From the NCBI RefSeq assembly GCF_020097815.1, contig NZ_CP083663.1:2232001-2296000 (forward strand): 64,000 bases of DNA, written 5' to 3'. Under the pieces are notes generated by a model, which worked only from the letters and a program-made list of their open reading frames with translations, was not told where the DNA came from and did no database searches. Of the stretch, positions 11,929 to 29,830 are shown piece after piece. How positions within the stretch are numbered: position 1 is the stretch's first letter; each line of letters opens with the position of its first letter. Both the position numbers and the translations under genes were made by a program. Source of the DNA: Haloprofundus salinisoli. Its GTDB lineage: Archaea > Halobacteriota > Halobacteria > Halobacteriales > Haloferacaceae.

Positions 11929-13005
11929 ATGCCGTATTCATCGAACGATTTCATGCAGCAGGGTGCCCCAGTCGGTGAGTTCTTCCGATCCGTGAATAAA
12001 GGATACGAGCTTGCTTATGAATGGGATCGGCATGACTATCATCCACGAGTAGAAGACCGGTTCGGGCGGCCCAGTGCCTCCAGGAGCGAATTCGGACTTG
12101 ATCTCTCTCGCATTCGTTGTAATTCCGGTACTTGGGGAACAAATCTCGAAGATATCCAAAATCATGTTCTCTATCATGTTGTTCAAAATGCCAAAAATAA
12201 CAGAATCACAATAGAATCATTCTTTCGAGATAGTATCCCACAGGAGAAGCATGATGAGATTGCTCGAAACATCACGAATGCTTGGCGTGATGAATTTGCG
12301 TTGAATGATCCTGTTGAAGGCGTTGGAGAGGATCGCATGAGGACGACAGAGTGGAGAATTGCACAGTGTTACTACGCGATTTTTAAGGCCCAAAGTGCGT
12401 TAATGCACGCTAATTTTGATGAGATTAGATCAAACGATTCTGGTGGGTCTCATGTCCGGATGTGGAAGAAGCATAGACGTGAAATGATGCCGCAACTCGG
12501 GAATTCGTTGTATGCCTACCCGTTTATGTTCTTCCCTCAAGCAACGACTGGTTCCGACTCTTCGAACTGGTTCGACTGGACAGTACCATTCCCAATCCCT
12601 GATCAGAATTTCGACCGGCAAGAGGATATCCTCCAGCAGAATGCGCGAGATTCTCTGGAGAATCTCTATGGTCAACTCGAAGAATTTGACTGGACAAACG
12701 AGGGTGGTCTAAACACCTTCTATGACGCGTTATTGATGCTCCGAGCATGGGCTAATTACCAGCATGGAGGTGTTTTCAGCCGGCTTTATGGAGAAGGATA
12801 CATTCAAGCGATTGACGAGGCACTTCGATTGCTTGCTTTCACAGGGTTGGCAATAGCTGAGACCGGGATAATTCTTGCACACGGTTGGAGGAGGTTTCTT
12901 GTAATTTGGCAAGTGTTCTGGGCAAATGCCTATGCTGGTATCGCAAATTCATACGAGATCGCTCGACGTCGGCTTCAAGTATATCGAGAGGCCTTTGGTG
13001 ACTAA
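11929..13005 (+). CDS. HEPN-like helical protein of unknown function
   Basis: A 358-residue protein, mostly helical. Around residues 142-160 it has the W-x3-Q-x-YYAIFKAQSAL pattern seen in HEPN/MNT-type helical bundles, and near the C-terminus LRAWANYQHGG gives R272-x6-H279, matching the R-x4-6-H HEPN signature, followed by long amphipathic helices. It is preceded by a GGAGG ribosome-binding site and is divergent from the pseudo-methyltransferase/HEPN pair. A role as RNase or as partner in an abortive-infection module is possible, but unsupported beyond this motif. Confidence 0.5.
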   Translation: MPYSSNDFMQQGAPVGEFFRSVNKGYELAYEWDRHDYHPRVEDRFGRPSASRSEFGLDLSRIRCNSGTWGTNLEDIQNHVLYHVVQNAKNNRITIESFFRDSIPQEKHDEIARNITNAWRDEFALNDPVEGVGEDRMRTTEWRIAQCYYAIFKAQSALMHANFDEIRSNDSGGSHVRMWKKHRREMMPQLGNSLYAYPFMFFPQATTGSDSSNWFDWTVPFPIPDQNFDRQEDILQQNARDSLENLYGQLEEFDWTNEGGLNTFYDALLMLRAWANYQHGGVFSRLYGEGYIQAIDEALRLLAFTGLAIAETGIILAHGWRRFLVIWQVFWANAYAGIANSYEIARRRLQVYREAFGD

Positions 13006-13127
13006 TTCGACTGACTGAATTCACTCCCCGCTGTTCTATCGGACTATCCACTCCCATAGCAGCTCGATTCTTGTGTAGCAGCACATATCGCCCCGCGAAT
13101 ATTTGTGTCCTGAGTGGTAGTAGCGAG

Positions 13128-14306
13128 ATGAACAAGATGGATGGTGGAATCTACCTCGAACAAGATGGCGAACTCGTCGAAATGACTGAACATTCTTATC
13201 CAGAAGAAGACGTCCTCCAAGAACGCCTTGCTGAATTCCCCCGGCTTCTTGCTGGTAATCAAATGAACCCAGAGACCCCCCGAAACTGGGCACTTATTGC
13301 TCGAGAAGCCGGTATTCCGGATCACGAGGGCGGTGGTGGCCGTTGGTCAGCTGACCATCTATTTATTGACCAAGATGCCATTCCGACACTTGTTGAAGTG
13401 AAGCGCGCCTCAGACACCAGAATTCGTCGAGAAGTGGTTGGACAAGCCCTTGACTACATATCACATGCTTGCATCCACTGGGATGCCGACACCCTGGAAA
13501 CACACTTTGGTCAAACTTGGGAGCAACAGGGCCATGATCCTGATCAAGTTCTTGGTGAACTGCTCGTTGACGACTCTCCGAGCCAGTTCTGGGAACAAGC
13601 ACAGTCGAATCTTCGAGCAAAACGTGTTCGCATCCTTTTTGTTGCAGACCAGATCCCGAGTGAGCTCAAGCGTGTCGTTGAATTTCTCAATGAAGGCTTC
13701 TCAGACGCCGAGGTTTTCGCGGTAGAGGTTGCCCAGTACAAAGGGGAGGGTATGAAAGCATTTGTTCCTAGGCTCTACGGTCAAACAGAGGAAGCGCGTG
13801 GAACAAAGAAAACCTCGCGCTACGATGGGGCAATCGAGAACGAAGAGGAGTTTTTCGCAGACATTGATTCCAAACTACAGCAAGGCAAAGTGACGTCGAA
13901 ACTGGCTGAGGCATATCGTGAGCTGTATGATTTTGCTCAAGAACAAGGAAATGTCCAGATCAACAGGGCACAGAATGCCTCGTTCAAACTACTGGTAGAT
14001 GAACATCAAGGGCATGCTGGTGGGAATCCTGGAGTGTTTTCAGCCAATATTAATACAAATCTCCAGATATGGCAGGCGAGCAACCCTCTTCCCGATGAGG
14101 AGGGTGAATCTTCAGATGTCGCATGGTCGCGAGAGGCTTACGAAGAGTACCAAGAAGCATTCTCCAGACTTGAGGGGAATCTTGACGGGAACACAGCATC
14201 GATCGAAATCATCGCACTTGACGGTAATCTTCAACAGTTCAAAGCTGCCTGCAACGAATTTGTGACCCGATGTAAAGAAGCAACACATACAGACGAAAGA
14301 TGGTAG
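13128..14306 (+). CDS. PD-(D/E)XK nuclease-like protein (DUF91/NucS-like N-terminal domain)
   Basis: A 392-residue protein whose N-terminal region carries a restriction-endonuclease-fold core: D76 in WSADHLFID and E90-V-K92 in TLVEVKRASD, followed by the helix VVGQALDYIS, as in DUF91/NucS-type nucleases. The C-terminal 200 residues are charged and unassigned. ATG 13128 is preferred to an upstream in-frame TTG at 13071 because the extra residues look non-native. It probably cuts DNA; target and partners are unknown. It is the first of a group of co-directional genes running to 17.1 kb with gaps of about 90-180 bases. Confidence 0.7.
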   Translation: MNKMDGGIYLEQDGELVEMTEHSYPEEDVLQERLAEFPRLLAGNQMNPETPRNWALIAREAGIPDHEGGGGRWSADHLFIDQDAIPTLVEVKRASDTRIRREVVGQALDYISHACIHWDADTLETHFGQTWEQQGHDPDQVLGELLVDDSPSQFWEQAQSNLRAKRVRILFVADQIPSELKRVVEFLNEGFSDAEVFAVEVAQYKGEGMKAFVPRLYGQTEEARGTKKTSRYDGAIENEEEFFADIDSKLQQGKVTSKLAEAYRELYDFAQEQGNVQINRAQNASFKLLVDEHQGHAGGNPGVFSANINTNLQIWQASNPLPDEEGESSDVAWSREAYEEYQEAFSRLEGNLDGNTASIEIIALDGNLQQFKAACNEFVTRCKEATHTDERW

Positions 14307-14400
14307 TTGTGAACCATCATATCCACTGGTCAATTCTCTAGTTGCGTGCAAACCAGACTTCGTTATCTACTGTTAATTGATGTAGAGGGGCAACTTCACA

Positions 14401-14715
14401 ATGAAGCATCCTGAATCTCAGGGCGTCATGCGAGAAAACGAACCGATTGAGTGTGGAATTTGCGGAAAAGGATTACTTGAGAAACCGGTGCCCTCTGGGC
14501 CAAAAGAAGGAATCGAGAGGATGGTATCATCCGATCAAGCGCGGAAGATGAAAGGGAGTGACAAGACAAAGAGAGAGGCTGGGAAGGCCTGGTCGTTAAA
14601 AATCGGATTCTGCGAGGACTGCACAAAGAAACATAATTTCGACGGGAATAGTAGCCTAGACGAAGTTCTACCAAAGGTTGCACTCTCTCGAGTTGCAAAG
14701 ATTCCAGAAAAGTAG
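14401..14715 (+). CDS. Small zinc-ribbon protein
   Basis: A 104-residue basic protein with ECGICGKGLL near residue 18 and FCEDCTKKH near residue 70, together a C-x2-C...C-x2-C zinc site split by a lysine-rich insertion. It starts with ATG 14401 and lies between two PD-(D/E)XK nuclease genes on the same strand. Function unknown; it could be a nucleic-acid-binding partner of those nucleases. Confidence 0.6.
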   Translation: MKHPESQGVMRENEPIECGICGKGLLEKPVPSGPKEGIERMVSSDQARKMKGSDKTKREAGKAWSLKIGFCEDCTKKHNFDGNSSLDEVLPKVALSRVAKIPEK

Positions 14716-14893
14716 ACTGGCCGTTAATCAGAAAAATGGATCGGATCGTTTCAAACCAACATAGACCGACTTGACTCACGGAATCATCTCGCTGCCAAGA
14801 TCCAATACTCAAAATTCCATCTCCACTTGGCACTATGAAGCCGCCATCGAAGTTATACTTCCAGGATTTGATGACTACTCTGGAAGATGGGAA

Positions 14894-16159
14894 ATGACTC
14901 AATTTGAGCTTGTAAATGAGTTCATAGACGTCTCGAAGGAAGACGACCTCACAAAGGCCGTCTTCGGCTGTCTTGAGCTACTGAGCACGGAGGCGCTCAA
15001 CGAGATATTCAAGCAAGCAGCATTGGGTATCAATGTACAGTCAGAGCCTGAATTCACATTTCACGTGACCGTAGATAGGCGAGAGCCCGACGTTATCATC
15101 GAAGACGGACGGAATCTCACCGTCATGGTTGAGGCCAAGCTCGGTGATCATACTAGGCCGAGCCAACTCTCCGATGAGTATGCAGATCTCATTGAGGGCT
15201 GGAACTCAGAATCCCTTAGACTATGGCACATCACAGATGACAGTCAGCGACCTCGAAATATCAAGGCTCGAACCGGTATACCACGGGACGACTTTCTGTG
15301 GTGCAGTTGGCGAGACCTTGCTTCGGCGTTACTCAATGTTGATTTGAGGGTGGTAAACAGTACAGACCGGAGTGTAATGGCGATGTTGGAGCAGATATTC
15401 GAGGATAACGGGTTTGCTCCGTTTGGAGGGTTCACTCTCATGAAGGATTTACAATCATTGTCAGGACAGTTGCAACAGGCGTATCAGGTACGAAAGCAGT
15501 ACTACAGTGAAATCAATTTGTTCAGAAAAGACGTTGAGAGCTATCTCACTGATGAAGTTCGCTTCTGGCGGTTCTTTAGACGTGGTGTATCTGGAGGGAT
15601 TTCATCGGGCCGGAAAACATTCCCAACGAAGAGTTGGGAGAATATGCCGAGAAACCTGTGGTTCAGTTATGTCCCTCAGGGTAACACCCCGGAACGTGCC
15701 ACCAGACAATCCCACGAAAACTATCTGATTTTGGATTTTAATTCGAGAACTGGCACCATCAGAGCTGGCTATATGATGACTACAGCCACTGGTAAGGTCG
15801 AAGACGATGTCTTCCGGAAGATTCTGCATGAACAGAGAGACTTGGTTCTCGAGATTATTCGAGAGAACCAACTTCAGCCATACACAACCAGCTACAGTCT
15901 GACAGACAGATTAGGCCTCACTGACGACCTTGAGCCCTTCCTTGAGGAGCTCGGAGATTCCTCCTATGATGATTCTGAGTGGGGGCGGCGATTGCTACTC
16001 ACCCGAACCTGGAGTACTGATGAGTTGCCGACCAAAGATGAAGGAGACGGACTATTTGAGCCAGCAGAGGTGACGAAGGAGATCGCAGGCGCATTGAACG
16101 ACATTCACCAATTAACGTATCACGACTACGATCACATCTTCTATCCCAAAACTGAATAA
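14894..16159 (+). CDS. PD-(D/E)XK nuclease-like protein
   Basis: A 421-residue protein with an N-terminal restriction-endonuclease-type core: D66 in REPDVIIEDG and E80-A-K82 in LTVMVEAKLGD, followed by a helix and an RE-like strand (RLWHITDD). The remaining three-quarters is unassigned, with mixed alpha/beta character. An in-frame TTG exists at 14771, but ATG 14894 removes residues that do not look like protein core. It is a probable DNA nuclease of a defence locus; the trigger and specificity are unknown. Confidence 0.65.
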   Translation: MTQFELVNEFIDVSKEDDLTKAVFGCLELLSTEALNEIFKQAALGINVQSEPEFTFHVTVDRREPDVIIEDGRNLTVMVEAKLGDHTRPSQLSDEYADLIEGWNSESLRLWHITDDSQRPRNIKARTGIPRDDFLWCSWRDLASALLNVDLRVVNSTDRSVMAMLEQIFEDNGFAPFGGFTLMKDLQSLSGQLQQAYQVRKQYYSEINLFRKDVESYLTDEVRFWRFFRRGVSGGISSGRKTFPTKSWENMPRNLWFSYVPQGNTPERATRQSHENYLILDFNSRTGTIRAGYMMTTATGKVEDDVFRKILHEQRDLVLEIIRENQLQPYTTSYSLTDRLGLTDDLEPFLEELGDSSYDDSEWGRRLLLTRTWSTDELPTKDEGDGLFEPAEVTKEIAGALNDIHQLTYHDYDHIFYPKTE

Positions 16160-16324
16160 CTGCACCAAGTTCCGCCAGTATGGTAGTTTCCTCTGAGCGC
16201 ACACTAGACAGACTTCGATGCATGCTGTAGCTGTTAGTTAGGTGTGTGCCTACTACACGTGACTGTGATGCGTAGGTGTGAATCGACACTGTGACGTATG
16301 GTTGTGTGAAGTGTCAGACAACAG

Positions 16325-17140
16325 ATGGCACGTCTCTACGAGTACGCCGCCTCAAACACCAAGTCAGGCTACTTCCTCCGCGGTGGCTCCAGTGACGGCA
16401 ACTATACTATGCGGGCAACCGACCTCGGTAGGCGACTCTTCGACAGTCTAGACTACGACCCCGGAATCGTCAATAGGGAGCGCGGCCCGCGTATCCCATC
16501 GCAACTACAGTGGGCGATGTATGATGTGGGGCTGCTCAAGACTGGTGATTCTGAACCATCTGGTACCGGAATTGACGGGGGTCTCGATGCTGAGGACGCG
16601 GAGATCACCGAGGAGATGATCGCCCAACTCGAAGAATTCGTTCTTGGCGAGGACTCCGACCGTGAGGAAATACTGAAACTTGCCGAAATTCTAGACATCG
16701 ACCCCAAGGACGACTCCCTCACTCCTATCTGGGAGCTTTCCAAGTTCGAGGGGCAGGGAATCGTGAGCATCTTCGAGAGCAAGTTGGATGAAATAATTTG
16801 CACCGAAGACGCGCCCAACTGGGAAATCGACGTCAGGCACACACCCGAAATCCCCGGCCCTGAAGGCACGACGACCTTCCACGTCGACATCAAACATCCC
16901 GAAGACGGAGACGAGATCTACACGCATCAGATGTACTACGTTGCAGATGAAAACTCGGACACACCGGGGTTGGCAACGATGACGAAGGTACCCGTGGATG
17001 TCGACCGCCGCCTCCGAATCGATCGGCAGCGCGGGCGGGTACTTGAGGCTATGAGTCACGTCCCTCAGCTGGCCGGTATCTACGCTGGTGACCCGACGGT
17101 GGAATTGAACTGCATCATTCTGGAAGAAGTGCTGGACTGA
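16325..17140 (+). CDS. Hypothetical acidic protein
   Basis: A 271-residue protein with no recognised domain. The N-terminal 80 residues contain DNA-binding-like basic segments (TDLGRRLFDSLDYD), the middle is highly acidic, and the C-terminal half looks like a beta-rich domain (WEIDVRHTPEIPG, TTTFHVDIKHPEDG). It closes the co-directional group that began with the DUF91-like nuclease; a GTG-rich 80-base stretch lies just upstream. Its reading frame is clean and its codon use is ordinary, so it is very likely expressed. Confidence 0.55.
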   Translation: MARLYEYAASNTKSGYFLRGGSSDGNYTMRATDLGRRLFDSLDYDPGIVNRERGPRIPSQLQWAMYDVGLLKTGDSEPSGTGIDGGLDAEDAEITEEMIAQLEEFVLGEDSDREEILKLAEILDIDPKDDSLTPIWELSKFEGQGIVSIFESKLDEIICTEDAPNWEIDVRHTPEIPGPEGTTTFHVDIKHPEDGDEIYTHQMYYVADENSDTPGLATMTKVPVDVDRRLRIDRQRGRVLEAMSHVPQLAGIYAGDPTVELNCIILEEVLD

Positions 17141-17575
17141 TAGGCCATCGTTACACCAGCCGATCCTCCCGCTTCCTCCGCTCAACCATCAGCCAGTCCC
17201 GGGCGGTAATCCACTCAGTCTTCACCGACCCTGACAGCCGTTGTTAACAGAGGAGATGGTGCTACCGGTGGGAGGGCTTTCGACTACTTGAGAACCGGAT
17301 AGTTCGCAGGCGTAAAGGTCACTCTGAGGTCGTTAAAACGCGTCATCAAGAGCTGGTAACCCACGAAGGACTATTATCGGTGATACAAAACTAGTTGGTC
17401 GAGTTCTCTTCACCAACGACATCGTATGAATGACCGTGCCCGTGGGCTGAGATCGTGAACTGTGGGCTATTGATTATGGAGAGGCTGGGCGAACAGTGGC
17501 CCGAGGAATCGCGGTTTTACTTTCAGGATGGTATACTCAAGCTTATCAGTACAGCAATTAGTACATTCAATCGAA
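17141..17575. other. Intergenic region before the Mre11-Rad50-like operon
   Basis: No gene, tRNA or clear repeat was found in these 435 bases. Short open frames occur, but none has a start, length and composition that support coding. The AT-richer end (about 17530-17575) is likely to hold the promoter of the downstream four-gene operon. Confidence 0.5.
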
Positions 17576-18736
17576 ATGTCAACCCGTCTTCTTCATATCA
17601 GCGATACTCATCTCGGAAACCGGCAGTATGGGAGTGATATCCGCCGGGATGACTTCGCTGACGCATTCGAGAAAGCCATAGAGTATGCCGTTGAGCAAGA
17701 TGTCGACGCGGTCATACACACGGGCGACCTGTTCGACTCGCGTGATCCGAGCCTTCCCGACCTGAACCGCTGTATAGACATCCTACAGCGCCTCGAAACT
17801 GCGGGAATTCCGTTCTACGGCATCGTCGGAAACCACGAGCGGAAGATGGACGATCAATACCTCGACCTAATCGAGAAGACGGGAGCAGCCGAACGCCTCA
17901 CGAAACATCCCACACAGGCAACAGATGAGGTTGTCCTTTATGGCATTGACGCCGTAACCAAGCCGGCGTGGCACGCCGAGGACTTCCAACTCAAAGCACC
18001 ACCAGAAGGCACGTTCACGATCCTCTGTATGCACCAACTCCTCGATCCGCCGGTGCCGGAACTATTTGCTGAGCACCCTCTTGACGACGTTCTCGAACGG
18101 GTCAACGTCGATCTTGACGCCGTTGCACTCGGAGACTACCACGAGACCGTCGGTACAGTCGAAGCCGGGACGAAGGTCTGGTACGCCGGGTCGACGGAGC
18201 GATGCGCGAAGGATGAGATAGAGCCCAGGACGGTGAGTCTCCTAGAGATCGATGGTGGTGAGTTGACCCGTCGAGAGCGAGAATTGGACACTCGGGACTT
18301 CATCACCATCGGAATCACGTTCGCCGAGGATGACGACCACTCGTACGCCGAAAATGTGATTGACCGCCACCACGTGGAGGATAAGGTCGTCTCGGTGGTA
18401 CTCAACGGGGAATCGACGTCAGTCACCTCCCGCGACGTGCGCAAGGCCGTCATCAACCGCGGCGCCGCTGTGTGTCGCGTCGATGACGAGCGTGGAGGGC
18501 CCGACATCGATCTCTCTGAAGGGCCGCGCGGCGAAATAGAGAGCGTCGACCGCTTGATCGAAGAGAAACTGAGCGAACAGAACCTCAGCGAAATTTCGCT
18601 GGAGATCGAGGAACGCATCCGTACCGATTCCGTCGCTCGGTCTGGGTTCGACAATGAGGTGGAGGAACTCCTCATGGAGGCGCAAGACGAGGCGTTCGAC
18701 GGACAAGCTGTGACAGAAGTGGAGGGCCAAGAATGA
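17576..18736 (+). CDS. Mre11/SbcD-like DNA repair exonuclease
   Basis: A 386-residue calcineurin-like phosphoesterase of the Mre11 group. The two-metal motifs are intact: D10 and H12 in ISDTHLG, G50-D51 in HTGDLFD, N86-H87 in VGNHER, then MHQ and GDYHE. Partnered with the Rad50-like protein it would process DNA ends with 3'-5' exonuclease and endonuclease activity. I chose ATG 17576 because the family begins with this strand; a longer in-frame start at 17528 adds nothing recognisable. The stop overlaps the next start (ATGA). The protein looks like a mobile paralogue rather than the chromosomal mre11. Confidence 0.9.
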   Translation: MSTRLLHISDTHLGNRQYGSDIRRDDFADAFEKAIEYAVEQDVDAVIHTGDLFDSRDPSLPDLNRCIDILQRLETAGIPFYGIVGNHERKMDDQYLDLIEKTGAAERLTKHPTQATDEVVLYGIDAVTKPAWHAEDFQLKAPPEGTFTILCMHQLLDPPVPELFAEHPLDDVLERVNVDLDAVALGDYHETVGTVEAGTKVWYAGSTERCAKDEIEPRTVSLLEIDGGELTRRERELDTRDFITIGITFAEDDDHSYAENVIDRHHVEDKVVSVVLNGESTSVTSRDVRKAVINRGAAVCRVDDERGGPDIDLSEGPRGEIESVDRLIEEKLSEQNLSEISLEIEERIRTDSVARSGFDNEVEELLMEAQDEAFDGQAVTEVEGQE

Positions 18737-21700
18737 GGATGCAGCACCTCCGCCTCCAGAACATCCGAAGCTACGCCGACCAGACGGTCGAGTTCCCCGA
18801 GGGGACGATCCTCATCCACGGCGACAACGGAGCGGGAAAGACATCGCTATTGATGGGCCTGTTCGGGGGTCTCTTCCTCTCGGAGATTCGGAACGTCGGC
18901 AACAACTCGTTCAACCTCGAGGAGATTGTCCGGCGTGGAGAGACCAAGGGAACCGTCGGGCTCGTCTTCGGAGTCGGCGACGTGGAGTACACCGTCGAGT
19001 GGAAAATTTATACGACCGGTACACCGAACAGCGCGACGCTCACTTCACCGGCGCTGTCCGAGCCTGTGACAGGAATCACAGACGTTCACGACGAAGTGAG
19101 GCGCATCATCGGAATGGACGAGGATGACTTCGCCAACTCAGTCTATGTCAAGCAGGGTGAGATCGACCGCTTGATCGACGCAAGCAACCGGGCGGGAATG
19201 ATTGACGGTCTTCTTGGACTCGACGAGATCGACGACTACATCGAGACGATGAAGATAGCCCGTCGGGGGGCGGGACGCGTGCGGGATCGTAAGCGCGACA
19301 ACGCCGAGAGCCGCCGCAAGGAACTCCGTGAGAATTTCAAACGCGACGAGGATGACTTCGAAGATGAAATCACCGAACTCACTAAAGACATCGACCGATT
19401 CGACTCGCAGGTCAACAAGGTGGAAGACTACTTGGATGACCTGCGAGACACACGTGCTAACCTCGCAGGTGACATAGACGACTATGAGGATGCCGTCGAG
19501 CAGAAGCGCGAGAAGGAGCACCAGATCAAGGAAACAAAGGAGAAGCGAACGGAGAGGCAGCAGCAAATTGAGGAGTGCGAGGCCACCATCGATGACCTCG
19601 GTGTAGTCATTGATGACCTCGAAGACGATATTGACGAACTCGCCGCTACGGTCGACATGGATGTCGACACCGTGGACACGGCCAAGACCTCACTCGATGA
19701 TACGCAAGACGCACTCCAAGCGACGTCGGTCGAGGAGGCAAATCGCAAAAACGACCTCGAGCAGGCGAAGGAGGCACTCGACGACCTCGAAGCGGAGTTG
19801 GACGAGGCACAGAAAGAACTAGAGGAACTCCAGGACGAGCGCGATACCTTCGAGAGGGAACTCGACACCTGCGAGGACAACCTCGATGCGGCGGGGGACG
19901 GTCTCGAAGACGCCGTCGACGAGCGAAACAAGATGGCGGTGGAATTCCTACCTGATGTTGACTTCGGCGACGAGATCGACGCCGAGACAATCGACCATGT
20001 GGAGGAGCGGATTGACACACTCGACGACCGACACGGAGAGATCGAGACCGAACTGGCCCAGCGCGAGACTACGCTCTCCGAACGCGAGAGTGATCTTGAA
20101 GACGAACGGGAGGCAGTGGACGATGCTCGGGACGCCCTCGAGGAGAAGCGACAAGAACTCGACTCGCTTGGGGACGACATCGACGCAGCCGAGCAACGAC
20201 TCGACGAGGCCACTGACGAGTTCGAGAACCGGCTCTCGTCACTGGACGAATGCGCTGGCGAGTACGACATCGAGCTGTCCGCCGAGGAACTACAGGCCGC
20301 TGCCGACACCCGACTACCCGACCGAATCGAGGCGCTGAACGACGGCCTCGACAAGGTCGGCAACAGCATCTCGGCGCTCGAGGAGCGCGAGAGCAGTTTG
20401 GTCGACGAGCGCGAAGAGCTACGCGAACTCGACCAGGAGGGCAAGTGTCCACGGTGCAGGCAGCCTGTGGATGAGAACCACATCGAGGCTGAGGTCGATG
20501 AGATAGAGACCACTCTCGAAGAAACCCGCGAGGAGTTGGACGAACTGCTTGACGAACGAGAGACGCTCCAGCAGGAGAAGGCCGCGCTCGGCGACCTCCG
20601 CGACGGTGTCCTCGACGTCGTGGAGTTCCGCCGTGAGGAGGTCAAGACTGCCGAGGACGAACTCGAAGGCCTCGGCGACGAAAGAGACGATCTCCAAGCG
20701 AACATCGATGACCTCGAGATGGAGGTTGAGTCACACGAGGACGAGATTGATACGCTCGAAGACGACATCGTTGACCTCGAGGATGAGATTGAGCAGCTCG
20801 AAACCGACCGTGACGAGCTGGCAGAAGCGATTGAACGCGGTGAGGTTGTCGTTGACCAGTTCGAGACGGTCGCAGAACACCACGAGCGCGTAGAAGACAT
20901 AGCGGAGGAAGTCGACCAGTTACGCACGGTAGTGGAAGAGAAAGAGGACGACATCACCGAGACACGCGACCGGATTGAATCGCTCCAGTCAGAGATCAAC
21001 GAGCAAGAGGGTACCGTCGAAGACTGCGAGGCAGCGCTCCGCGAGGCTAAAGCAGAGGTCGACACCCTCGAAGATCGAAGAGAGACGCTGGAGGAAATCG
21101 TCGACCTCTACGACGAGATTGACGAGAAACAGTCTGAAATTTCTGACGAGCAGCAGAGCATCGAGGCCCACCGCGAGATGATCCAGACGCTCAACGAACA
21201 GCTCACAGACCTTCGAGAGGAGCGTGAAGGCCTCAAGGAGCAACTGGGCGATACCAATCTCGAGGAACTGAAGGCCAAGCTTGAACAGGTGGAAGACAAG
21301 ATTGAGGAGCGAAAGGAGACGCGAGACAAGCTACAGGCCGAGGCCCTCAAGCTTCGAGAGGAGCGGAACACGCTCCAGAACGAGTTGTCGAACTTGCGTG
21401 ACCTGAAGGAACGCATCGAGGAGTTCGAGCAGCGGGCGGAGTGGGCCGACGCCGTTCACGGCGAACTCGACACCACCCTCAGTGTCTACGAAAACGTCAA
21501 GTCGGAACTCCGTGAGAAGTACCTCGCGTACATCAACGAGTACACGAACGATATCTTCCAGAACATCTACCTGAACAGTAGCTACCAGCGGGTAGTTGTC
21601 TCTGAAACCTACGATGAGCGCAGCGACAGCTACGACTATGAAATCCAACTTCTGTGCGACGACGGCACCACCGAAGACCCGAGCAACGCCAGTGGCGGGG

Positions 21701-22005
21701 AGCGGGCGATCGTCAACCTCGCGCTCCGGGCGGGCATCTACAAACTCATCGCCGAACTGGAGGGCGGCGACCGTGGCCGACTTCCCCCGTTCATCCTCGA
21801 CGAACCGACCACCTTCCTCGATGAGGGACACGTCGGCCAACTTGAGGAGATGCTCGACCGAATTCGGGAGTGGGATGTCCCGCAGGTTATTGTCGTCTCC
21901 CATGACGAGACGCTGATTGATGGCGCCGACCACGCTTGCCACGTCGAAATCGACGAGGTGACGAACACCAGCCGTGTCACGATGCGTTCCGCGGGGGCCG
22001 ACTGA
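18733..22005 (+). CDS. Rad50/SbcC-like SMC ATPase
   Basis: A 1090-residue SMC-type ATPase. Walker A GDNGAGKTS lies at 30-38, long heptad-rich acidic coiled coils fill about 170-930, the zinc hook CPRC is at 572-575, the ABC signature ASGGERAIVNLALR starts at about 986 and Walker B FILDEPTTFLD at about 1020. It would bridge and clamp DNA ends for the Mre11-like nuclease. Its start overlaps the mre11-like stop by four bases, and its stop is two bases before the nurA-like start. All functional motifs are present, so the complex should be active. Confidence 0.93.
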   Translation: MRMQHLRLQNIRSYADQTVEFPEGTILIHGDNGAGKTSLLMGLFGGLFLSEIRNVGNNSFNLEEIVRRGETKGTVGLVFGVGDVEYTVEWKIYTTGTPNSATLTSPALSEPVTGITDVHDEVRRIIGMDEDDFANSVYVKQGEIDRLIDASNRAGMIDGLLGLDEIDDYIETMKIARRGAGRVRDRKRDNAESRRKELRENFKRDEDDFEDEITELTKDIDRFDSQVNKVEDYLDDLRDTRANLAGDIDDYEDAVEQKREKEHQIKETKEKRTERQQQIEECEATIDDLGVVIDDLEDDIDELAATVDMDVDTVDTAKTSLDDTQDALQATSVEEANRKNDLEQAKEALDDLEAELDEAQKELEELQDERDTFERELDTCEDNLDAAGDGLEDAVDERNKMAVEFLPDVDFGDEIDAETIDHVEERIDTLDDRHGEIETELAQRETTLSERESDLEDEREAVDDARDALEEKRQELDSLGDDIDAAEQRLDEATDEFENRLSSLDECAGEYDIELSAEELQAAADTRLPDRIEALNDGLDKVGNSISALEERESSLVDEREELRELDQEGKCPRCRQPVDENHIEAEVDEIETTLEETREELDELLDERETLQQEKAALGDLRDGVLDVVEFRREEVKTAEDELEGLGDERDDLQANIDDLEMEVESHEDEIDTLEDDIVDLEDEIEQLETDRDELAEAIERGEVVVDQFETVAEHHERVEDIAEEVDQLRTVVEEKEDDITETRDRIESLQSEINEQEGTVEDCEAALREAKAEVDTLEDRRETLEEIVDLYDEIDEKQSEISDEQQSIEAHREMIQTLNEQLTDLREEREGLKEQLGDTNLEELKAKLEQVEDKIEERKETRDKLQAEALKLREERNTLQNELSNLRDLKERIEEFEQRAEWADAVHGELDTTLSVYENVKSELREKYLAYINEYTNDIFQNIYLNSSYQRVVVSETYDERSDSYDYEIQLLCDDGTTEDPSNASGGERAIVNLALRAGIYKLIAELEGGDRGRLPPFILDEPTTFLDEGHVGQLEEMLDRIREWDVPQVIVVSHDETLIDGADHACHVEIDEVTNTSRVTMRSAGAD

Positions 22006-22007
22006 AG

Positions 22008-23285
22008 ATGGACTCCGAAGCTGTCGGCACCGTTCGGGAGCTGTTCGCCGAGATCGACGCAGCAGTTCCCCGCGAACTTGAGTCACAGTCCGAACACGCG
22101 CGTCGGCTGTTCGAGTTGCTGGGGCTCGACGGAGGCTTAGTGAAGCCGATAGGCGATCCGACCTACCAGCGGACGCGAATCGATGAGCTAGGAACGTGGG
22201 CCGAAGACCCGTGGAGCAGCAGGAACTACGGAGTCGACGCTAGCACGACCCGTCCGATGGAGTACAACAACGGGATGGTCATCGACGCCGCCTACGCAAA
22301 GACTGCCGCCGTTGGCGACTCGGCTAATCGCACGGTCGAACAGTCAGGACGGATTGTTGGCGTGACATACCTCAACGACGCCGAAACCACTCTCCACCGG
22401 AAGACCATCGAGGGGGAGTACGTTGTGGGCGAGTTGGTACGGTTCCCCGAGTCAACCGAAGAGCCACGCAACATCTCGAAGTCGGTGGGGGCAGTCGCCC
22501 AGCGCCTAAGCGAGGGGCAGCAAGCGGTCAATTCGCTTAACAGCGTCAACGGGGCGATGTTCCTTGACGGGTCTGTCCTGCCGTTGGGAATCATCTACTG
22601 GGTGCTACTCGACTACGCAGGCGGAAGGTCGCCAGCCGGATCGTGGGGACTCCCAGCTGACATTGTCCGCAACTACGTTGAGGTTATCGACCGACAGTAC
22701 GAGCGCAATCAACCCGTAATCGGAATTGTCAAGACATCGACGATGTCGCAGGTGGTCTCCTCGCTCAACGAGAAGCTTGATCAACACGACATCGTTGAGG
22801 ATGGGCGGAAGCCGGAGGTGCCGTGGATTCGAGACCACCAGTTCCTTTCCGAGGTGCTTCGATTCGAGGATTTAGACTATCTTACCTACACGTCGTGGTT
22901 CGTCAGTGACGGGCAGAAAATCTCCGACAATGTCTATCAACTTCTGGAACCGTTGTCGGGCGACTTGCAGCACGGTGGCCCGGACGACTACCGGCGGGCG
23001 TTCTGCTTTGTCCGCCTCCCAAAGACCGGCGATTTGCTCCGAATCGAGACGCCTTACCTGATGGTGCGGGAGGAGGAGATGCGCCGGAAGATTCAGCTTA
23101 AGGCACTAAAGGCCATCGCGCAGCGGCGTGGCATTCCGCGTGCTATCCACCGAGCCGACAGACTCGCCCGTATCAGCCAGGAGAATCGAGAGAAAATACG
23201 CGGCATGATCAAGCGTACTGAGGCCGCATACGACCATAACTGGGATGGTCGCTGGCGCGACCTCACCGACGATATAGACCTATGA
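22008..23285 (+). CDS. NurA-like 5'-3' nuclease
   Basis: A 425-residue protein of the NurA family. The key element is the metal-binding strand AMFLDGSVLPLGIIYW near residue 185, with a second acidic region around WIRDHQFLSEVL, and a C-terminal region rich in basic residues and helices. NurA nucleases work with the HerA translocase to degrade or resect DNA. The gene lies two bases after the rad50-like stop and overlaps the herA-like start, so all four products are made together. An upstream open extension to 21936 is a shadow within the ATPase gene. Confidence 0.8.
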   Translation: MDSEAVGTVRELFAEIDAAVPRELESQSEHARRLFELLGLDGGLVKPIGDPTYQRTRIDELGTWAEDPWSSRNYGVDASTTRPMEYNNGMVIDAAYAKTAAVGDSANRTVEQSGRIVGVTYLNDAETTLHRKTIEGEYVVGELVRFPESTEEPRNISKSVGAVAQRLSEGQQAVNSLNSVNGAMFLDGSVLPLGIIYWVLLDYAGGRSPAGSWGLPADIVRNYVEVIDRQYERNQPVIGIVKTSTMSQVVSSLNEKLDQHDIVEDGRKPEVPWIRDHQFLSEVLRFEDLDYLTYTSWFVSDGQKISDNVYQLLEPLSGDLQHGGPDDYRRAFCFVRLPKTGDLLRIETPYLMVREEEMRRKIQLKALKAIAQRRGIPRAIHRADRLARISQENREKIRGMIKRTEAAYDHNWDGRWRDLTDDIDL

Positions 23286-25168
23286 CAGACGACGTAGACG
23301 AACTCCTCAATAACGACCCCATCGCCAACGAACAACAAACCGACCAGTCGATTAACGCGGACGACACCGACGGACAAGATGACTCCTTGTCGCGGGAAGA
23401 GACCTCTATCCCCGAATCTCCCGTGCCTAACAACGGATCAGCACCCGTAGATGGAGAAGTTGGGCACGTACTCGCGAGCGAGGAGATTCGCGTGGCTCGC
23501 GACGAATACAACGTCAACACCTTCGTGACGACGAGTCGGCGCGATGACGTGCGGGTAGGCGACTACGTGGAAATTCCGTACCCCGGCGGCGACGATGAAC
23601 TGTTCTCGGTCATCGACGGCCTACGATATGAGCCGTACACGGAACTGGACGACAAGTCGGACACGCACAACATCATCAGCAAGGCCCGCACCCTCGACGA
23701 GTCCGAGTACGTCCTCGTGGCAGAACTCGACCCGATAGCGATCCTCCGCGATCGAGGTGAGGAACTGGAGCGGGGCATTGTGAACCGTATCCCCAAACCG
23801 AACACCCCGGTCAGCCTCTCTCGCGACGACGAGCACCTCCGTACCGGGCTCAACATCCCACAGGAGGGCATCTTCGCTGGTTACCTCTCGGTCGGTGGTG
23901 ACAGGATGGAAATCGACGGCGACCCGTTCCCATACTATATCCAAAACCCCGGTATTGATCCCGACACCGGCGAGGTTGAGGACGGCGAACCGGCGGTGTT
24001 CCGGCATGCACTCGTCGCTGGATCGACTGGCACCGGCAAGACCCATTTCACGAAGAACCTCCTGAGGCAGTTCGTCAGTGGCAAGCGGTATCCCGTGGAT
24101 GTAGGTTCGGACGGCGAAGTGGAGCGTAGCAGGCTCAATGTCGTCATCTTCGATCCGGAGAACGAGTACTGGGAAATGCGCGACGACAACCCGACGCTGA
24201 CTGACGAGCTGCGTCAACGGCTGCGCAACCAAGACATCAAGTTCGACGGCGTCGACGACTTGGAGGTGTTCGTTCCGGATGTTGACCACACACGGAGCCC
24301 CTCGACTGAGGAGAGTCAGCAGCTCACCATCCCGTTCTCCGTTGCGAAGCACGAACCACAACTCCTGATGCCATTCAACCAGATGTCGGACGTCACTCGC
24401 GGGGCCATCACCAGCTGTCTCGACGCCTATTTCAGCTGCTTCGAAAAGGACAACAACGACTGGACTACGCGCCCCATTCCCGAGCCGACGTACGAGGACT
24501 TCGTCCAGTTCCTCAACGAGCATGAACACGAGGACAGTCAGCTCCGCCAGTGGAACAGTATCGGCGATGGAACGTGGGACGCGATGTGCCGGCGCACGAA
24601 ACAACGCGATTATTTCGATGTCTTCGACACAGGCACGAACCCGTTCCCCAACATCTCCGACCAAATCTTCCGCGAGGGACAAGTCACAATCATCCCTACG
24701 AGCCACCTTCGGGGGGAGAAGGAGTACCTCGTCGTGTTGTCCATCCTCTCGTACATAATCGAGAACAAGATCGACGACTTCGGTGTCGACCCCGCAGTCA
24801 AGCGTACACCGATGCTCGTGGCGGTCGACGAGGCCCACAACTACTTCTCGAACCCATCGAACGTCCGCGAGGCCTACATCGTAGGGAAGGCCCGCGAGGC
24901 CGTCAAACAGGGTCGGAAGGACAAGCTTGGCCTGCTGATGATTACGCAGAATCCCGGCGACATCGACGGAGACATCCTCAAGCAGGTCAACACCAACGTC
25001 TTCCTCCAGCTCCGCAGCGAAGTTGTTGAGGATGTGCCGTCAGTCCCGCGCGGTTTCCGGAAGGACATCCCGAAGTTTGCAAAGGGACAGGCCGTCGTCA
25101 AGGCTCCTGACGTGGAGGTTGTGGAAGTAGTCGGACTCCCATACTGCCTTACGCGTCACGACAACTGA
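23282..25168 (+). CDS. HerA-like DNA translocase ATPase
   Basis: A 628-residue ATPase with an acidic, disordered N-terminus (1-60), a beta-barrel HAS domain around 60-110, Walker A AGSTGTGKT at 246-254, IFDPENEY at the beta-2 position and a Walker B with DEAH at 516-519, then the arginine-finger region near TNVFLQLRSE. It matches the HerA/FtsK-like hexameric pumps that drive NurA nuclease. It is the last gene of the Mre11-Rad50-NurA-HerA operon, and its ATG overlaps the nurA-like stop. Confidence 0.9.
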   Translation: MTDDVDELLNNDPIANEQQTDQSINADDTDGQDDSLSREETSIPESPVPNNGSAPVDGEVGHVLASEEIRVARDEYNVNTFVTTSRRDDVRVGDYVEIPYPGGDDELFSVIDGLRYEPYTELDDKSDTHNIISKARTLDESEYVLVAELDPIAILRDRGEELERGIVNRIPKPNTPVSLSRDDEHLRTGLNIPQEGIFAGYLSVGGDRMEIDGDPFPYYIQNPGIDPDTGEVEDGEPAVFRHALVAGSTGTGKTHFTKNLLRQFVSGKRYPVDVGSDGEVERSRLNVVIFDPENEYWEMRDDNPTLTDELRQRLRNQDIKFDGVDDLEVFVPDVDHTRSPSTEESQQLTIPFSVAKHEPQLLMPFNQMSDVTRGAITSCLDAYFSCFEKDNNDWTTRPIPEPTYEDFVQFLNEHEHEDSQLRQWNSIGDGTWDAMCRRTKQRDYFDVFDTGTNPFPNISDQIFREGQVTIIPTSHLRGEKEYLVVLSILSYIIENKIDDFGVDPAVKRTPMLVAVDEAHNYFSNPSNVREAYIVGKAREAVKQGRKDKLGLLMITQNPGDIDGDILKQVNTNVFLQLRSEVVEDVPSVPRGFRKDIPKFAKGQAVVKAPDVEVVEVVGLPYCLTRHDN

Positions 25169-25620
25169 CCCACTTCACCTGAACAGCCGGCCCAGGAATC
25201 CGCCCGGGACTATACCCAAAAAGGTGCGAATCCTCATTTTGAGGTATTATTTACCGGTAATTCTAGCCGAGCAGTGGCGGCGGTCGCGGGTGATGTCGCG
25301 CGCGCTGTTGGCCAATCACGTGCGACCGTGATCTGGAGGTGTGGGGTGTGGATGCGAGTCGAGACTGTGATTTGTGGGAGACACAACTAAATGTCATTCA
25401 AGAGATTGCCATGAGATAGTGCATTCCGCAAGCGCTCATCGAAATTTCAGGACACGAATTACGCCGAGCGATAATTACACAATATGCTAACCATATTGAT
25501 TTGATTGATTTTCATGAAGTACAGGCTATAGCTGACCATAAGCAGATTTCTCAAACGCGTGATTGTGTGAAAGATGATTAGAGCGTGATCAAGCCGAAGA
25601 TGCGCCAAGTAACGTTTAGC
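25169..25620. other. Intergenic stretch with a short coding remnant
   Basis: A GTG-rich segment (about 25330-25380) resembles those behind the integrase and before 16325. From 25420 to 25581 an uninterrupted plus frame of 53 codons without a start reads as sensible protein (ALIEISGHELRRAIITQY then DFHEVQAIADHKQIS) and ends in TAG, which looks like the tail of a gene whose 5' part has been lost. Nothing else was recognised. The base composition drops sharply toward the AT-rich gene that follows. Confidence 0.45.
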
Positions 25621-26823
25621 TCATTTATGGTAAATGAGACTCATGAGAAACTTACTGAACATTGAACCACCAATTTTCGAAATTGCTTTCTTGAGCTCAG
25701 AATCATGTTCAATCATCCAATTAGCCATCTCTGCAATCCGTTCCTTGATGTGATCTCTATTCTCGGGAACTAGCGTCCTACAAGCCTTTCCGCGGAGTTC
25801 CTCTAAATTATCGGCGAGAAGTAGTGAGTCGTCTAGTACAGCAAGTTGCCAGTGTTCAATTGGATGGCCGATCAATGTTTTGCGATTGGGACGGTTCGTT
25901 AGTGACGCTTGTATTTCTCTGAACTTCCGTTGAATGGAGAACATACTGTTTTGTTCATATTTTGAAACATCTAAAGCGACCAATATATTATTCAGAATCT
26001 GTAGTCGTTTTCTTCGTCGTTGCTGAATATGATTGTCTGAGAACTCTGGAGTATAAATGAATGCACCTCTGTCCGTTATAACCAATTTATCGTCTGCAAG
26101 AAGGCCAAAATTACTATTTGTTATTTCATCTTGGATATGTTCTGCAAGGTCTTTTGGTTGGCCAGAAACGACTTTTGACACAGCGGGGTCATCGACGTTT
26201 TCCCCCGAATACACGTAAGATATGAAGAATAAATCACTGTAAGAGGGGGTATCATCATGATGATTTTTTCCGCCAATTATTAGCTCGTCGATTAGTGTAC
26301 CACGAATATATGAGAAAGGGTCCACTGAGGATTCAATTGAATTCCCTGTGACAGAGACTTCATATGGAATATCATTTATAAACTTGATATATTCGGTCGT
26401 GGAAAGGGTTTCAGAAACTCGGTAATAAAGCTTCAATCGAATAGAAAATAGGCCAAATGCATAGTATACTATCTCACATTCGGACTTGTAATCTTCTATA
26501 CCATACTTATCTATGAGTGAATTACTGATCTCTACTTTGAATTCTGGATTTATATACAGTGGGCGAAGGTTTTTTGACGAGAATTCTACTTCATTTGGTT
26601 TACAATTATCCCAGAACTGCCAGTAGCCATCAATATCTCCAATGCCAAGTATATTTGTGCGATTAATCTCCTCAGGGAGTTCATCATAAGGATCATACCG
26701 ACTACCATCAAGAACAGCTTTGTTCAGTTTGGTGAACCAATCGTCAACCGATATTTGTTCAAGAATTATTTCTGGAAAAAACATATTGTTTCCAATTACT
26801 ACTGTTCCTTCCGAAATCTCCAT
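25621..26823 (-). CDS. Hypothetical protein, strikingly AT-rich gene
   Basis: A 400-residue protein with no recognised domain. It contains many Asn, Ile and Tyr residues and uses AT-ending codons, unlike every neighbour, so it is a recent transfer from a lower-GC source. The N-terminal 260 residues look alpha/beta (YYAFGLFSIRLKLYYRV); the C-terminal part is helical with a basic stretch (QQRRRKRLQILNNILVAL) and ends in a helix. It is monocistronic on the minus strand between the HerA-like gene and a small membrane protein. A stand-alone defence gene would fit its place, but that is a guess. Confidence 0.65.
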   Translation of the reverse strand: MEISEGTVVIGNNMFFPEIILEQISVDDWFTKLNKAVLDGSRYDPYDELPEEINRTNILGIGDIDGYWQFWDNCKPNEVEFSSKNLRPLYINPEFKVEISNSLIDKYGIEDYKSECEIVYYAFGLFSIRLKLYYRVSETLSTTEYIKFINDIPYEVSVTGNSIESSVDPFSYIRGTLIDELIIGGKNHHDDTPSYSDLFFISYVYSGENVDDPAVSKVVSGQPKDLAEHIQDEITNSNFGLLADDKLVITDRGAFIYTPEFSDNHIQQRRRKRLQILNNILVALDVSKYEQNSMFSIQRKFREIQASLTNRPNRKTLIGHPIEHWQLAVLDDSLLLADNLEELRGKACRTLVPENRDHIKERIAEMANWMIEHDSELKKAISKIGGSMFSKFLMSLIYHK

Positions 26824-26934
26824 GACTAAAGTGGAACAGTATCAGTTAAGTAGTTAGCGGTCAAACACTTTGTGGACTCGACAGCCCGTAATGGGCTGTA
26901 TAGGGTCCATCGACCGTTACCACCTGAATCGGCT

Positions 26935-27114
26935 CTACCAGATGTCGGTCGACGTCCGACCGAGGTCGAACGCCAGAATGAGTGCTACGATGAGGAGGGT
27001 CACGGCGAGTGCCGGTCTGGGAGTCAGGATTTCCGCCAGTCCGAGCGCGCCGACAGCCACCATCCCGACGGCGAGTGCGAATAGCGAGAGTGGACGGGGA
27101 CCGATTGCGGACAT
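26935..27114 (-). CDS. Small two-helix membrane protein (paralogue of 45415-45597)
   Basis: A 59-residue protein starting MSAIGPRPLS, with two hydrophobic helices (LFALAVGMVAVGALGL and ALAVTLLIVALILAF) and ending GRTSTDIW. It is clearly homologous to the 60-residue protein at 45415-45597, sharing IGPR at the start, G-x-x-G spacing and GRTST-acidic-x-W at the end. The conserved ends show that the frame is real. Function is unknown; small membrane proteins of this size in defence islands can be membrane-damaging effectors or regulators. Confidence 0.7.
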   Translation of the reverse strand: MSAIGPRPLSLFALAVGMVAVGALGLAEILTPRPALAVTLLIVALILAFDLGRTSTDIW

Positions 27115-27549
27115 AATACCACTAATTGACGCAGAACCGCCTTAGAACCCGTCACCACTGAGAGCCGCCCAGACAATCCCCACCGCAATCAGGATTAGTA
27201 CCATTGAGGAATCGAGGACTCGTAGAGTTCGCGGCGGTGTTCGATGTTGGTTCTTCGTTGATGCGGCGGTGCGTGGCGGTTGTGAGCGGGGTTCAGTGCT
27301 TGCCTCGCGCTCAGGGAGTTCGCAATAGGGCGACCGCTGTTCGGCGTCGTATGGAGCGGAATTGCACTCGCGTACGTGTGGCTATTGCGCCAGCAGGACC
27401 CGCCGCGTCCGCGAGCCCTCACGCTCGGCAGAAAGATAATGCAGTATCAGAAGTGGTCATGGGATCACGTTCGGTCCTAATGGTGCCGACGGCACCGTGG
27501 GGCCATCTTAACAGCGGTTTTTTGTCCGTCGGTGAAACATGATACTCGA
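27115..27549. other. Gene-poor gap with short frames and a hairpin
   Basis: A 20-codon minus frame at 27142-27204 (MVLILIAVGIVWAALSGDGF) would make a tiny one-helix membrane peptide upstream of the small membrane protein; support is weak. On the plus strand near 27438-27500 a frame reads DNAVSEVV...LMV, like the conserved start of archaeal type IV pilins, but broken. A perfect hairpin GGTGCC-GAC-GGCACC sits at 27482-27496, just before the start of the next gene. Otherwise nothing was identified. Confidence 0.4.
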
Positions 27550-28314
27550 ATGGATCAGCTGACGAAGTGGCAGTTGGCGACGGTCAAATCAATCCAAGTG
27601 CTGTATGAGGACGATGATCTTCCGGAAAATGCCGATGAGCAACTCGAGACACTCGACAGACAGTCGGTTCTGCTAGGGGATGGCCCCGAATTGGAGGCGA
27701 TGATACGGCTGGTTCGGGCACGAGATGGCCGACGACTTGCGCTTTCAAATCTGTATAACATGTTCTCCCAATATTGCCAAGCCGGCGGCAAGCTTGACCG
27801 ATGGCACTTTCTGCATACTGCTGAGCTGTTCGAAGTACAACGACTGTTCGGAGAACAGGAAGTGGAGGCCTCACTCATCCGAGGAACGTCAGCACTAGAA
27901 CATACCTTAGAGGAGGAAGTCGACATCACTGCACATTGGCCAGACTATGACCCAGACGAAGATTACACCCGATTCGTGAAGCTCATCGACTGGGCGTTTG
28001 AGGACGGCGTGATGACGTATCAAGATTTGAAACTCCATCATTTCGTGCGAACCGTTCGGAACCGGTTCGCTCACCACACTTGGTTGGATCGTGGCGACGA
28101 TTTTGATATCCTGGTGCTGTCGGGTCGGGTCATCATCTATCTGCTGGATGCCCATGTGCAAGCGCGGTTCAACGCGATTGAGGAGGTGGAGCTTGAGAAC
28201 TTCATCGAAGGGCTCGACCCCGACGAGGCGTATCTCGGAGTTATTGAGGACGACCACGGGTGGGAGTTCAGGGAATTCCAGAAACGATGGCGCGTCCCGG
28301 ATAGTCAGTCCTAG
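27550..28314 (+). CDS. HEPN-domain protein, candidate RNase
   Basis: A 254-residue acidic protein. FVRTVRNRFAHHTW gives R170-N-x3-H175, the canonical R-x4-H of HEPN ribonucleases, placed after an acidic, helical first half and followed by the usual hydrophobic helix (ILVLSGRVIIYLLDAHVQ). A GTG 18 bases upstream (27532) is an alternative start. It stands alone, without a recognisable nucleotidyltransferase antitoxin beside it, so it may be a stand-alone effector or the surviving half of a pair. RNase activity is inferred from the motif. Confidence 0.65.
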   Translation: MDQLTKWQLATVKSIQVLYEDDDLPENADEQLETLDRQSVLLGDGPELEAMIRLVRARDGRRLALSNLYNMFSQYCQAGGKLDRWHFLHTAELFEVQRLFGEQEVEASLIRGTSALEHTLEEEVDITAHWPDYDPDEDYTRFVKLIDWAFEDGVMTYQDLKLHHFVRTVRNRFAHHTWLDRGDDFDILVLSGRVIIYLLDAHVQARFNAIEEVELENFIEGLDPDEAYLGVIEDDHGWEFREFQKRWRVPDSQS

Positions 28315-28590
28315 CGGCGCTACGTGTCTCCATCACAGAACCCGGTTTATCGGTGCGAAAGGGGGTGTTTGTTGTTGAGAGTCGAAGAAACGGCTCTGAC
28401 ACTATATTCACCGCTGTTCGCTGAAGGGACGACGGCGTCGACCGGACAGTCAGAGCGCAGTTTCGTCCCACGCCTCCTGTACGCGATCGTGGTTCGCCCT
28501 AGCATCAAGGTACCTGCGCCGCTGGTCCTCGTTCTTGTCGATGTCCATTAAACTCACACGATTGAGACCCGAGTCCAATGCCACGCTCCG

Positions 28591-29185
28591 CTAGGAATCT
28601 CCAGTGTCGATACGTTCGAGGGCGGCGACAACCGTGAGGTAGCTTGTTTCCACCGTCCCGTCTTCTTTCTCACGTGGTTCAATGACGGGTTCAAGGTATC
28701 CATCAGTAACGCGGAAGCCGAGCGGTGGTTTAGTGGTCCACTTGCCTTGGCGTGTAGCTTCACGCCGGCCCCGAAGAGCACGGCGGTGTGCCTGCTTTGC
28801 CTCTTCCTCGTACCAGAGAGAACTGCTTAGCGAAGAACGCGCTCATTGGATTGTCTGGATCGATAGCATCGCTCATGTCACCAAGAAGATATATGGTAGT
28901 GCCTGTCTCGACTGCGGAGTCAATGAAATCAGCACTAGTTGCGAGGATGCGAGAGATCCAACTGATTTCTACCATGACCACGTCGGTGTACTTGCCGCGT
29001 TCAACTGAATCGACGAGGTGGAGGAATTATTCTCGGGTTGAGTCGGCCCCACTTTGCTCAAGGTCAACGTAGACGTCAGCTTGGGTGATGTCGAAGTCCT
29101 GTTCCTTGAGCCAGTCTTCGATGCTCCCTTCTGGGATTGGCTTCCAGATTCTTGTTTGGGCGTAATATGCTGCTTTGGAGGGCAT
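28591..29185 (-). pseudogene. Serine recombinase (resolvase family), inactivated
   Basis: The minus frame from ATG 29185 begins MPSKAAYYAQTR and continues with EDWLKEQDFDITQADVYVD, the N-terminal resolvase fold of haloarchaeal serine recombinases. An in-frame TAA interrupts it after STRE, then sense resumes (VVMVEISWISRILATSADF), and a further frameshift near 28800 leads to the recombinase domain in another frame (QAHRRALRGRREATRQGKW, GFRVTDGYLEP) ending at 28591. The catalytic serine segment is degraded to YYAQTR. It is therefore a dead gene marking an earlier mobile element. Confidence 0.8.
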
Positions 29186-29197
29186 ATCGTCGTAATG

Positions 29198-29467
29198 GAA
29201 GCTACAGATCTACTAGATATAAAGCTCGTGACTAACCTACAGTGTGAAAGCTTCCCTGTTGAGTCGAGCCCACTATCCTACAGGGGAAATTCAGAAATTT
29301 CCAGTATTGCAAGTGAACTTATCAGAAAATACCCACTAGAAACGCCCAGTAATGCTGCGCTTTCACTTCCACTCCGGATGGGGAACTCATATACTCGTAT
29401 CCGTCGTTTGTCTCAACAAACCGACTCCGATACCCAGTTCGAGCCCACTTCCCGTCGACGTACCTGA
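29198..29467 (+). CDS. Possible small hypothetical protein
   Basis: An 89-residue frame from ATG 29198, with MEATDLLDIKLVTNLQ and a central helix (ISSIASELIRKYPLE) that reads as plausible protein. It is divergent from the recombinase pseudogene, and its end overlaps the 3' end of the minus-strand frame 29387-29830. No family is recognised, and it may be a remnant. Confidence 0.25.
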   Translation, partial: EATDLLDIKLVTNLQCESFPVESSPLSYRGNSEISSIASELIRKYPLETPSNAALSLPLRMGNSYTRIRRLSQQTDSDTQFEPTSRRRT

Positions 29468-29830
29468 CTTCCACGCAACCTCCGACTCTGTAATGCTCCC
29501 GGCCACATCTCTATTTGTGAGCACATGGGTACCATCCTCTGTCGATTGAGAGTCAGCAGGCTGTAACGGCGTCCCCTCGGCCTCCTCCGCATCCGCGTCA
29601 ATGTCCTCCACCGTGGTGACTGTCCCGCCAATACGGTGGAATCGTAGCGATCCCATTTTGACACGCGGCCCGATGTTCATCATCCCACGATCCTTGACGG
29701 TGTCACGGAACATGTCCTGTTCCGCTTCAACGATAGAGGCAGGAATCGTCTCCTCCACAGATCTAATCTCAACCTCTGTCGAAGGGTACTCCATTCCCTC
29801 TGTGAAATCCCAAACCGTTTCATCTGTCAT
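29387..29830 (-). CDS. Hypothetical protein
   Basis: A 147-residue frame starting MTDETVWDFTEGMEYPS. The first 75 residues (VEIRSVEETIPASIVEAEQD, then GPRVKMGSLRFHRIGG) look like genuine protein, while the C-terminal third is low in complexity (GSGLELGIGVGLL) and may be the result of truncation or a frame change. The start codon is followed by an acidic segment typical of haloarchaea. No function can be suggested. Confidence 0.45.
   Translation of the reverse strand: MTDETVWDFTEGMEYPSTEVEIRSVEETIPASIVEAEQDMFRDTVKDRGMMNIGPRVKMGSLRFHRIGGTVTTVEDIDADAEEAEGTPLQPADSQSTEDGTHVLTNRDVAGSITESEVAWKSGTSTGSGLELGIGVGLLRQTTDTSI

Follow-up and report, generated by a model that had tools for sequence, protein, structure and literature searches.

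An operon of mre11, rad50, nurA and herA is known from thermophilic archaea (Constantinesco 2002, 2004, as cited in PMC7776575). HerA and NurA have been said to be absent from Haloferax volcanii (PMC7776575) and 'not apparent' in halophilic archaea (PMC12977600). Among defence systems, PbeA and PbeC belong to one that protects archaea against viruses (PMC6459918), and Hachiman becomes active upon DNA damage and in the presence of free single-stranded ends (PMC12278908). Here we describe a cassette of all four genes in what we call the window, the whole 64,000-nucleotide stretch of Haloprofundus salinisoli DNA that was analysed. On balance, we lean towards viewing it as a mobile paralogue, specific to haloarchaea and spread by horizontal transfer, of the Mre11-Rad50 and NurA-HerA machine, and we propose for it an end-processing mechanism and a benefit in defence.

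The four-gene unit and its island

The cassette lies on the forward strand and begins with genes for an Mre11 nuclease (17576..18736, 386 aa; Pfam Metallophos, 1e-14; PDB Mre11 1ii7, 1e-18) and a Rad50 ATPase (18733..22005, 1090 aa; AAA_23, 4e-19), followed by those for a NurA nuclease (22008..23285, 425 aa; PF09376, 3e-14) and the hexameric DNA translocase HerA (23282..25168, 628 aa; PF01935 (DUF87/HerA), 6e-13; PF05872, 1e-7). The genes are tightly packed: Mre11 and Rad50 overlap by 4 bp, as do NurA and HerA, and two bases separate the Rad50 stop codon (22003-22005) from the NurA ATG at 22008. Mre11 motifs I-V, the Walker A and B motifs, signature and CPRC zinc hook of Rad50, the conserved acidic residues of NurA, and Walker A and B of HerA are intact. 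A sequence search of NurA against the PDB retrieved no NurA, while a fold search with its AlphaFold2 model (pLDDT 86) gave solved NurA-type structures as the sole PDB matches at E<=1e-3, namely those from T. kodakarensis (9x1m, 8e-10) and S. solfataricus (2ygk, 1e-8), and 3tal (2e-7). In its single-operon arrangement of mre11, rad50, nurA and herA, its catalytic residues and its predicted NurA fold, the cassette conforms to the archaeal Mre11-Rad50-NurA-HerA (MRNH) operon. Open reading frames, Pfam matches, motifs and junctions all agree with the initial annotation, which had described four end-processing proteins with key motifs in a single tight unit. The gene set is far beyond chance, because 29 of 293 haloarchaeal genomes (NurA search, counted by hand from the search results) have these four genes in this order.

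The best start for Mre11 is ATG 17576 rather than the in-frame ATG 17528, since the latter is overlapped by a conserved upstream element, ACTTTCAGGATGGTA (17519..17533, +), which lies 43-57 nt before the Mre11 ATG. The element is the window's variant, with two mismatches, of a cassette motif, ACTTTCACnnnGGTT, and taken alone this variant is not distinguishable from chance in the window. The exact core, CTTTCACnnnGGTT, closely precedes mre11 at about 15 distinct cassette loci, and neither core nor motif was found at the housekeeping mre11 loci fetched. The element may have a regulatory role. We rejected a host regulon for the motif, its match count in the genome being near chance.

The cassette is carried by an integrated island of 47.05 kb (6398..53450). 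Empty sites are found in three genomes of the same genus (G084, G222 and G144), in which the counterpart of the sequence preceding 6398 directly abuts that of 53451 onward, and the GC content drops from ~0.66 to ~0.5 inside the island. These two observations bear out the earlier claim that the cassette sits in an integrated island. The insertion point is the 5' end of rfcL, whose gene start the element restores. An imperfect 12-bp attachment core is present at both ends, on the left as CTCTGTCCAGTC (6386..6397), inside the 5' end of rfcL, and on the right as CTCCGTCCAATC (53451..53462); no exact flanking repeats longer than 12 bp were found at the island ends. A tyrosine integrase gene (6719..7900, +; PF00589, 9e-23) adjoins the left junction. 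A related genome (G204, L301; compare 6386-6403) has unrelated sequence 5' of rfcL, which might belong to a different element inserted there.

Distribution, mobility and ancestry

Cassettes of this class are located in islands, on chromosomes and on plasmids. The gene order is constant wherever the fetched region contains all four genes; one genome (G092) has a second nurA-herA copy with rad50 farther away (L055), and in another (G011) herA is on a different contig. Some relatives have an interrupted HerA or Rad50. A pattern scan across genome contigs of 84,980 species gave 30 loci, all of them haloarchaeal. The cassette is present on four plasmids, and one more plasmid gave a distant NurA-like match; phage records and IMG/VR yielded no copies.

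The nearest relative, in Haloferax elongans, shares 89% (Mre11), 90% (NurA) and 94% (HerA) protein identity with the window copy. The block common to the two (17512..25343, +), which we take as the mobile unit, is 86.9% identical at the nucleotide level, and the flanking DNA compared is unrelated. For many pairs at different sites, DNA similarity ends at the four genes and a short upstream stretch, the transferred block being ~7.7 kb. Transfer also reaches across families, with a cassette from another family (G233) matching that of H. massiliensis at 94.7% over 8.6 kb. The four proteins co-vary over 43 cassettes (r 0.93-0.97), values as high being reached in 0/2000 permutations. A fifth gene conserved throughout was considered and rejected, as common blocks between different sites stop at the four genes. 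Two cassettes of one genome (L060 and L061 in G292), 99.7% identical over ~20 kb near both ends of one contig, were counted once as a probable assembly overlap, and we give little weight to the cross-family near-identity of L064 and L065 (99.99% over 12.8 kb), which reflects either recent transfer or contamination. Patchy presence, block transfer, plasmid copies and the empty island sites mark the cassette as a mobile accessory unit of the defence-island kind, and its mobility, asserted from the outset, stands.

The host also carries ordinary versions of all four genes. A housekeeping mre11-rad50 pair lies beside pan and polB (C1:587310-591385), and a housekeeping nurA-herA pair occupies a separate locus (C1:2040132-2043584, L037); their products share about 27-38% identity with the cassette proteins. 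Each of the four same-genus genomes searched has a single NurA match, with an E-value of the size typical for the housekeeping copy. Of the 293 haloarchaeal genomes, 281 have NurA matches, and the family is also detected in the Haloferax volcanii control genome. The widespread haloarchaeal nurA-herA pair runs counter to the published statements of absence. Four genomes (G099, G111, G121 and G133; f5 g58) have a housekeeping-like Mre11 at about 41-55% identity and, at a completeness of only 77-90%, gave no NurA or HerA matches.

Phylogeny places the cassette apart from both potential sources. The Mre11 proteins of the cassettes make up a single clade (SH-aLRT 97-99), set apart from thermophile-type operons with support of 100, and housekeeping haloarchaeal Mre11 groups outside this clade with family f19 (98), which is probably Methanosarcinaceae. 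The NurA and HerA trees likewise keep the cassette distinct from both the thermophile operons and the housekeeping group; cassette monophyly is well supported for Mre11 alone and weak for NurA (57) and HerA (20). Direct transfer of a thermophile cassette was rejected, as all three trees separate the two strongly. The cassette thus falls outside the thermophile MRNH lineage, with the haloarchaeal/f19 type, and outside the clade of housekeeping haloarchaeal mre11-rad50 and herA-nurA, the window copy being located in an island. The initial annotation had proposed a paralogous set, and had named as contrary outcomes that this be the only mre11-rad50 set in the genome or that it group with housekeeping copies. 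Because ordinary host sets are present at 27-38% identity, neither outcome is realised, and the three trees show no grouping with housekeeping copies. We also rejected GDxH in Mre11 as a cassette signature, for housekeeping haloarchaeal and f19 Mre11 carry it too.

Two further observations concern diversity. A rarer, thermophile-like MRNH class occurs in a few haloarchaea (L177, L179, L182, L183; G034:C1:144091-151966). In G003 and, judged by Mre11, in several genomes of genus g23, no other set was found. Within one cassette subclass (L062, L063, L066, L067, L103), Rad50 is without the CxxC zinc hook and has WPLD or WPID there instead; three of these loci (L062, L066, L067) have the gene for a PLD-type nuclease 24-46 bp after HerA.

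Defence and repair settings

The initial annotation had placed the cassette among defence genes, and its surroundings are in keeping with this. Its island neighbours include PbeC, the SMC-like subunit of the phosphorothioate-dependent Pbe defence system (34582..36582, -; PADLOC, 7e-222), PbeA, the SF2 helicase of Pbe (36858..38903, -; PADLOC, 3e-226), and two N6/N4 DNA methyltransferases (30120-31742, +, and 31796-33448, -; PF01555, 2e-43 and 1e-37). No PbeB, PbeD or Dnd genes were identified alongside the island's PbeA and PbeC. The methyltransferases, PbeC, PbeA and a UvrD/PD-(D/E)XK gene group span 30120-44571 and perhaps form a further defence module; a tRNA-Glu call antisense within pbeC (36138-36233) is probably false. 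Across the class, 211 PADLOC families (1e-10) were counted near cassettes, 26 near housekeeping copies and 80 near related integrases elsewhere, figures that are rough because one protein matches many models. As generic integrase neighbourhoods already reach 80 families, hitchhiking may account for part of the defence association. Cassette neighbours include OLD/Gabija-like TOPRIM ATPases, Piwi and PLD nucleases, and a plasmid copy in Halocatena salina has metabolic genes as its only neighbours. In two lineages, Halorussus ruber and one metagenome-assembled genome (MAG), HamA lies 48-49 bp after HerA and is followed in the same direction by a HamB-like helicase (L056:12491-16061, L096:8010-11568), an arrangement that has the appearance of a six-gene operon.

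Elsewhere the cassette class occupies a repair setting. For genera g23 and g64, and for G011, no Mre11/Rad50/NurA/HerA set other than this class was found. Five g23 genomes (G005, G061, G077, G092 and G105; 95-99% complete) have Mre11, HerA and NurA matches at cassette level only, with the exception of weak extra matches and of a thermophile-like set in G061; other g23 genomes have Mre11 of the thermophile-like type only. Genomes of this genus thus carry the cassette class, the thermophile-like class or both, and never the ordinary set. Four g23 loci (L052, L053, L054, L059) have the cassette at the housekeeping site itself, flanked by polB and pan, and two orientations of it occur there. Its standing as sole set at this site implies that the cassette class can probably carry out ordinary end processing, and its occurrence as sole set in g23, g64 and G011, at the housekeeping locus in the first of these, argues that it is not defence-only. 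In g23, we infer replacement rather than retention.

Proposed function and relation to known systems

We favour the view that the cassette would act as a mobile end-processing machine in both defence and repair settings, here mainly in defence, and would not be a dedicated virus killer. Mre11-Rad50 would recognise free or protein-blocked DNA ends and open them endonucleolytically. The HerA ring would then load and feed duplex to NurA, which would degrade or resect it processively. The likely benefit in the island would be that broken or linear foreign DNA is destroyed or processed, ends generated by neighbouring defence systems included; that the cassette would destroy invading linear DNA is a plausible proposal. 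The same chemistry could furnish the repair set where housekeeping genes have been lost.

The initial annotation leaned towards a dedicated antiviral system, in which the four genes alone would be a stand-alone immunity module degrading incoming linear viral or plasmid DNA. We consider this unlikely. Patchy occurrence on plasmids and in islands, block transfer, the partial decay of some copies, the defence neighbours and the Hachiman operons would all suit such a module, as would the restriction of linear viral DNA by the eukaryotic Rad50 complex (review, PMC10586767). However, the unit has no evident self/non-self component, PADLOC holds no family for NurA, the defence-rich context is shared with integrase neighbourhoods and so is not specific, and in g23 the cassette is the sole set and sits at the housekeeping locus. 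The g23 placement at polB-pan in two orientations, the lack of an ordinary set there and full catalytic conservation would instead suit a role in repair only, in which the cassette improves double-strand break repair or tolerance, occasionally displaces housekeeping genes and has defence neighbours by coincidence; its redundancy with intact housekeeping sets in most genomes and the apparent Hachiman operon in two lineages make this, too, quite improbable.

We give very little credence to the remaining readings. Cargo serving a mobile element's own replication, recombination or maintenance would be expected in islands and on plasmids, and one plasmid copy does lie near an integrase, but the four-gene block alone is common to the elements, with differing flanks, and no copy turned up in phage records or IMG/VR. 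It is similarly doubtful in the extreme that the cassette is a decaying, functionless passenger here: although HerA or Rad50 is broken in some relatives, all four frames and their motifs are intact in the window copy, and 87% nucleotide against 89-94% protein identity to H. elongans (Mre11, NurA, HerA) suggests purifying selection.

Returning to the mobile end-processing machine, a bolder version can be entertained tentatively: an ancient, separate mobile MRNH lineage might constitute an immunity module that is triggered by DNA ends, directly joined with Hachiman in some lineages as sensor or amplifier, and repeatedly domesticated into the housekeeping repair locus. If this were so, traffic between DNA repair and antiviral defence would run in both directions. 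The mobile four-gene version travels between families and sits at the housekeeping locus in one genus, and tractable Haloferax strains open the way to asking whether repair and immunity are both served by a single end-processing machine.

As in the MRNH operon of thermophilic archaea, the four proteins are clustered, in an order also seen in several non-haloarchaeal genomes of the sampled phylum; unlike that operon, the cassette is mobile and accessory, its Mre11, NurA and HerA belong to another clade, next to the haloarchaeal/f19 type, and its Mre11 motif V reads GDxH, not GHxH. The housekeeping haloarchaeal mre11-rad50 and nurA-herA sets are the nearest family of all and share GDxH, but they are near-universal, occupy two separate loci and are only 27-38% identical. 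The thermophile-like haloarchaeal MRNH class (L177, L182, L183) also keeps the four genes together, sometimes without a housekeeping set (G003, several g23 genomes), yet groups with other non-haloarchaeal operons. Lamassu and MADS similarly feature a Rad50-like SMC or HerA-like ATPase in a defence setting, and cassette proteins match the LmuB (1e-43), Mad3 (4e-27) and Mad8 (2e-14) profiles. Among ten proteins, those of the cassette and six near neighbours, there is no LmuA or LmuC, and of mad1-mad8 only mad3- and mad8-like matches appear; the profile matches reflect family resemblance among the ATPases. Finally, the cassette shares with HerA-based defence systems (SIR2-HerA and HerA-DUF, as cited in PMC12977600) the pairing of a HerA ring with an effector, and differs from them in that its partner nuclease is NurA and Mre11-Rad50 is part of the same unit.
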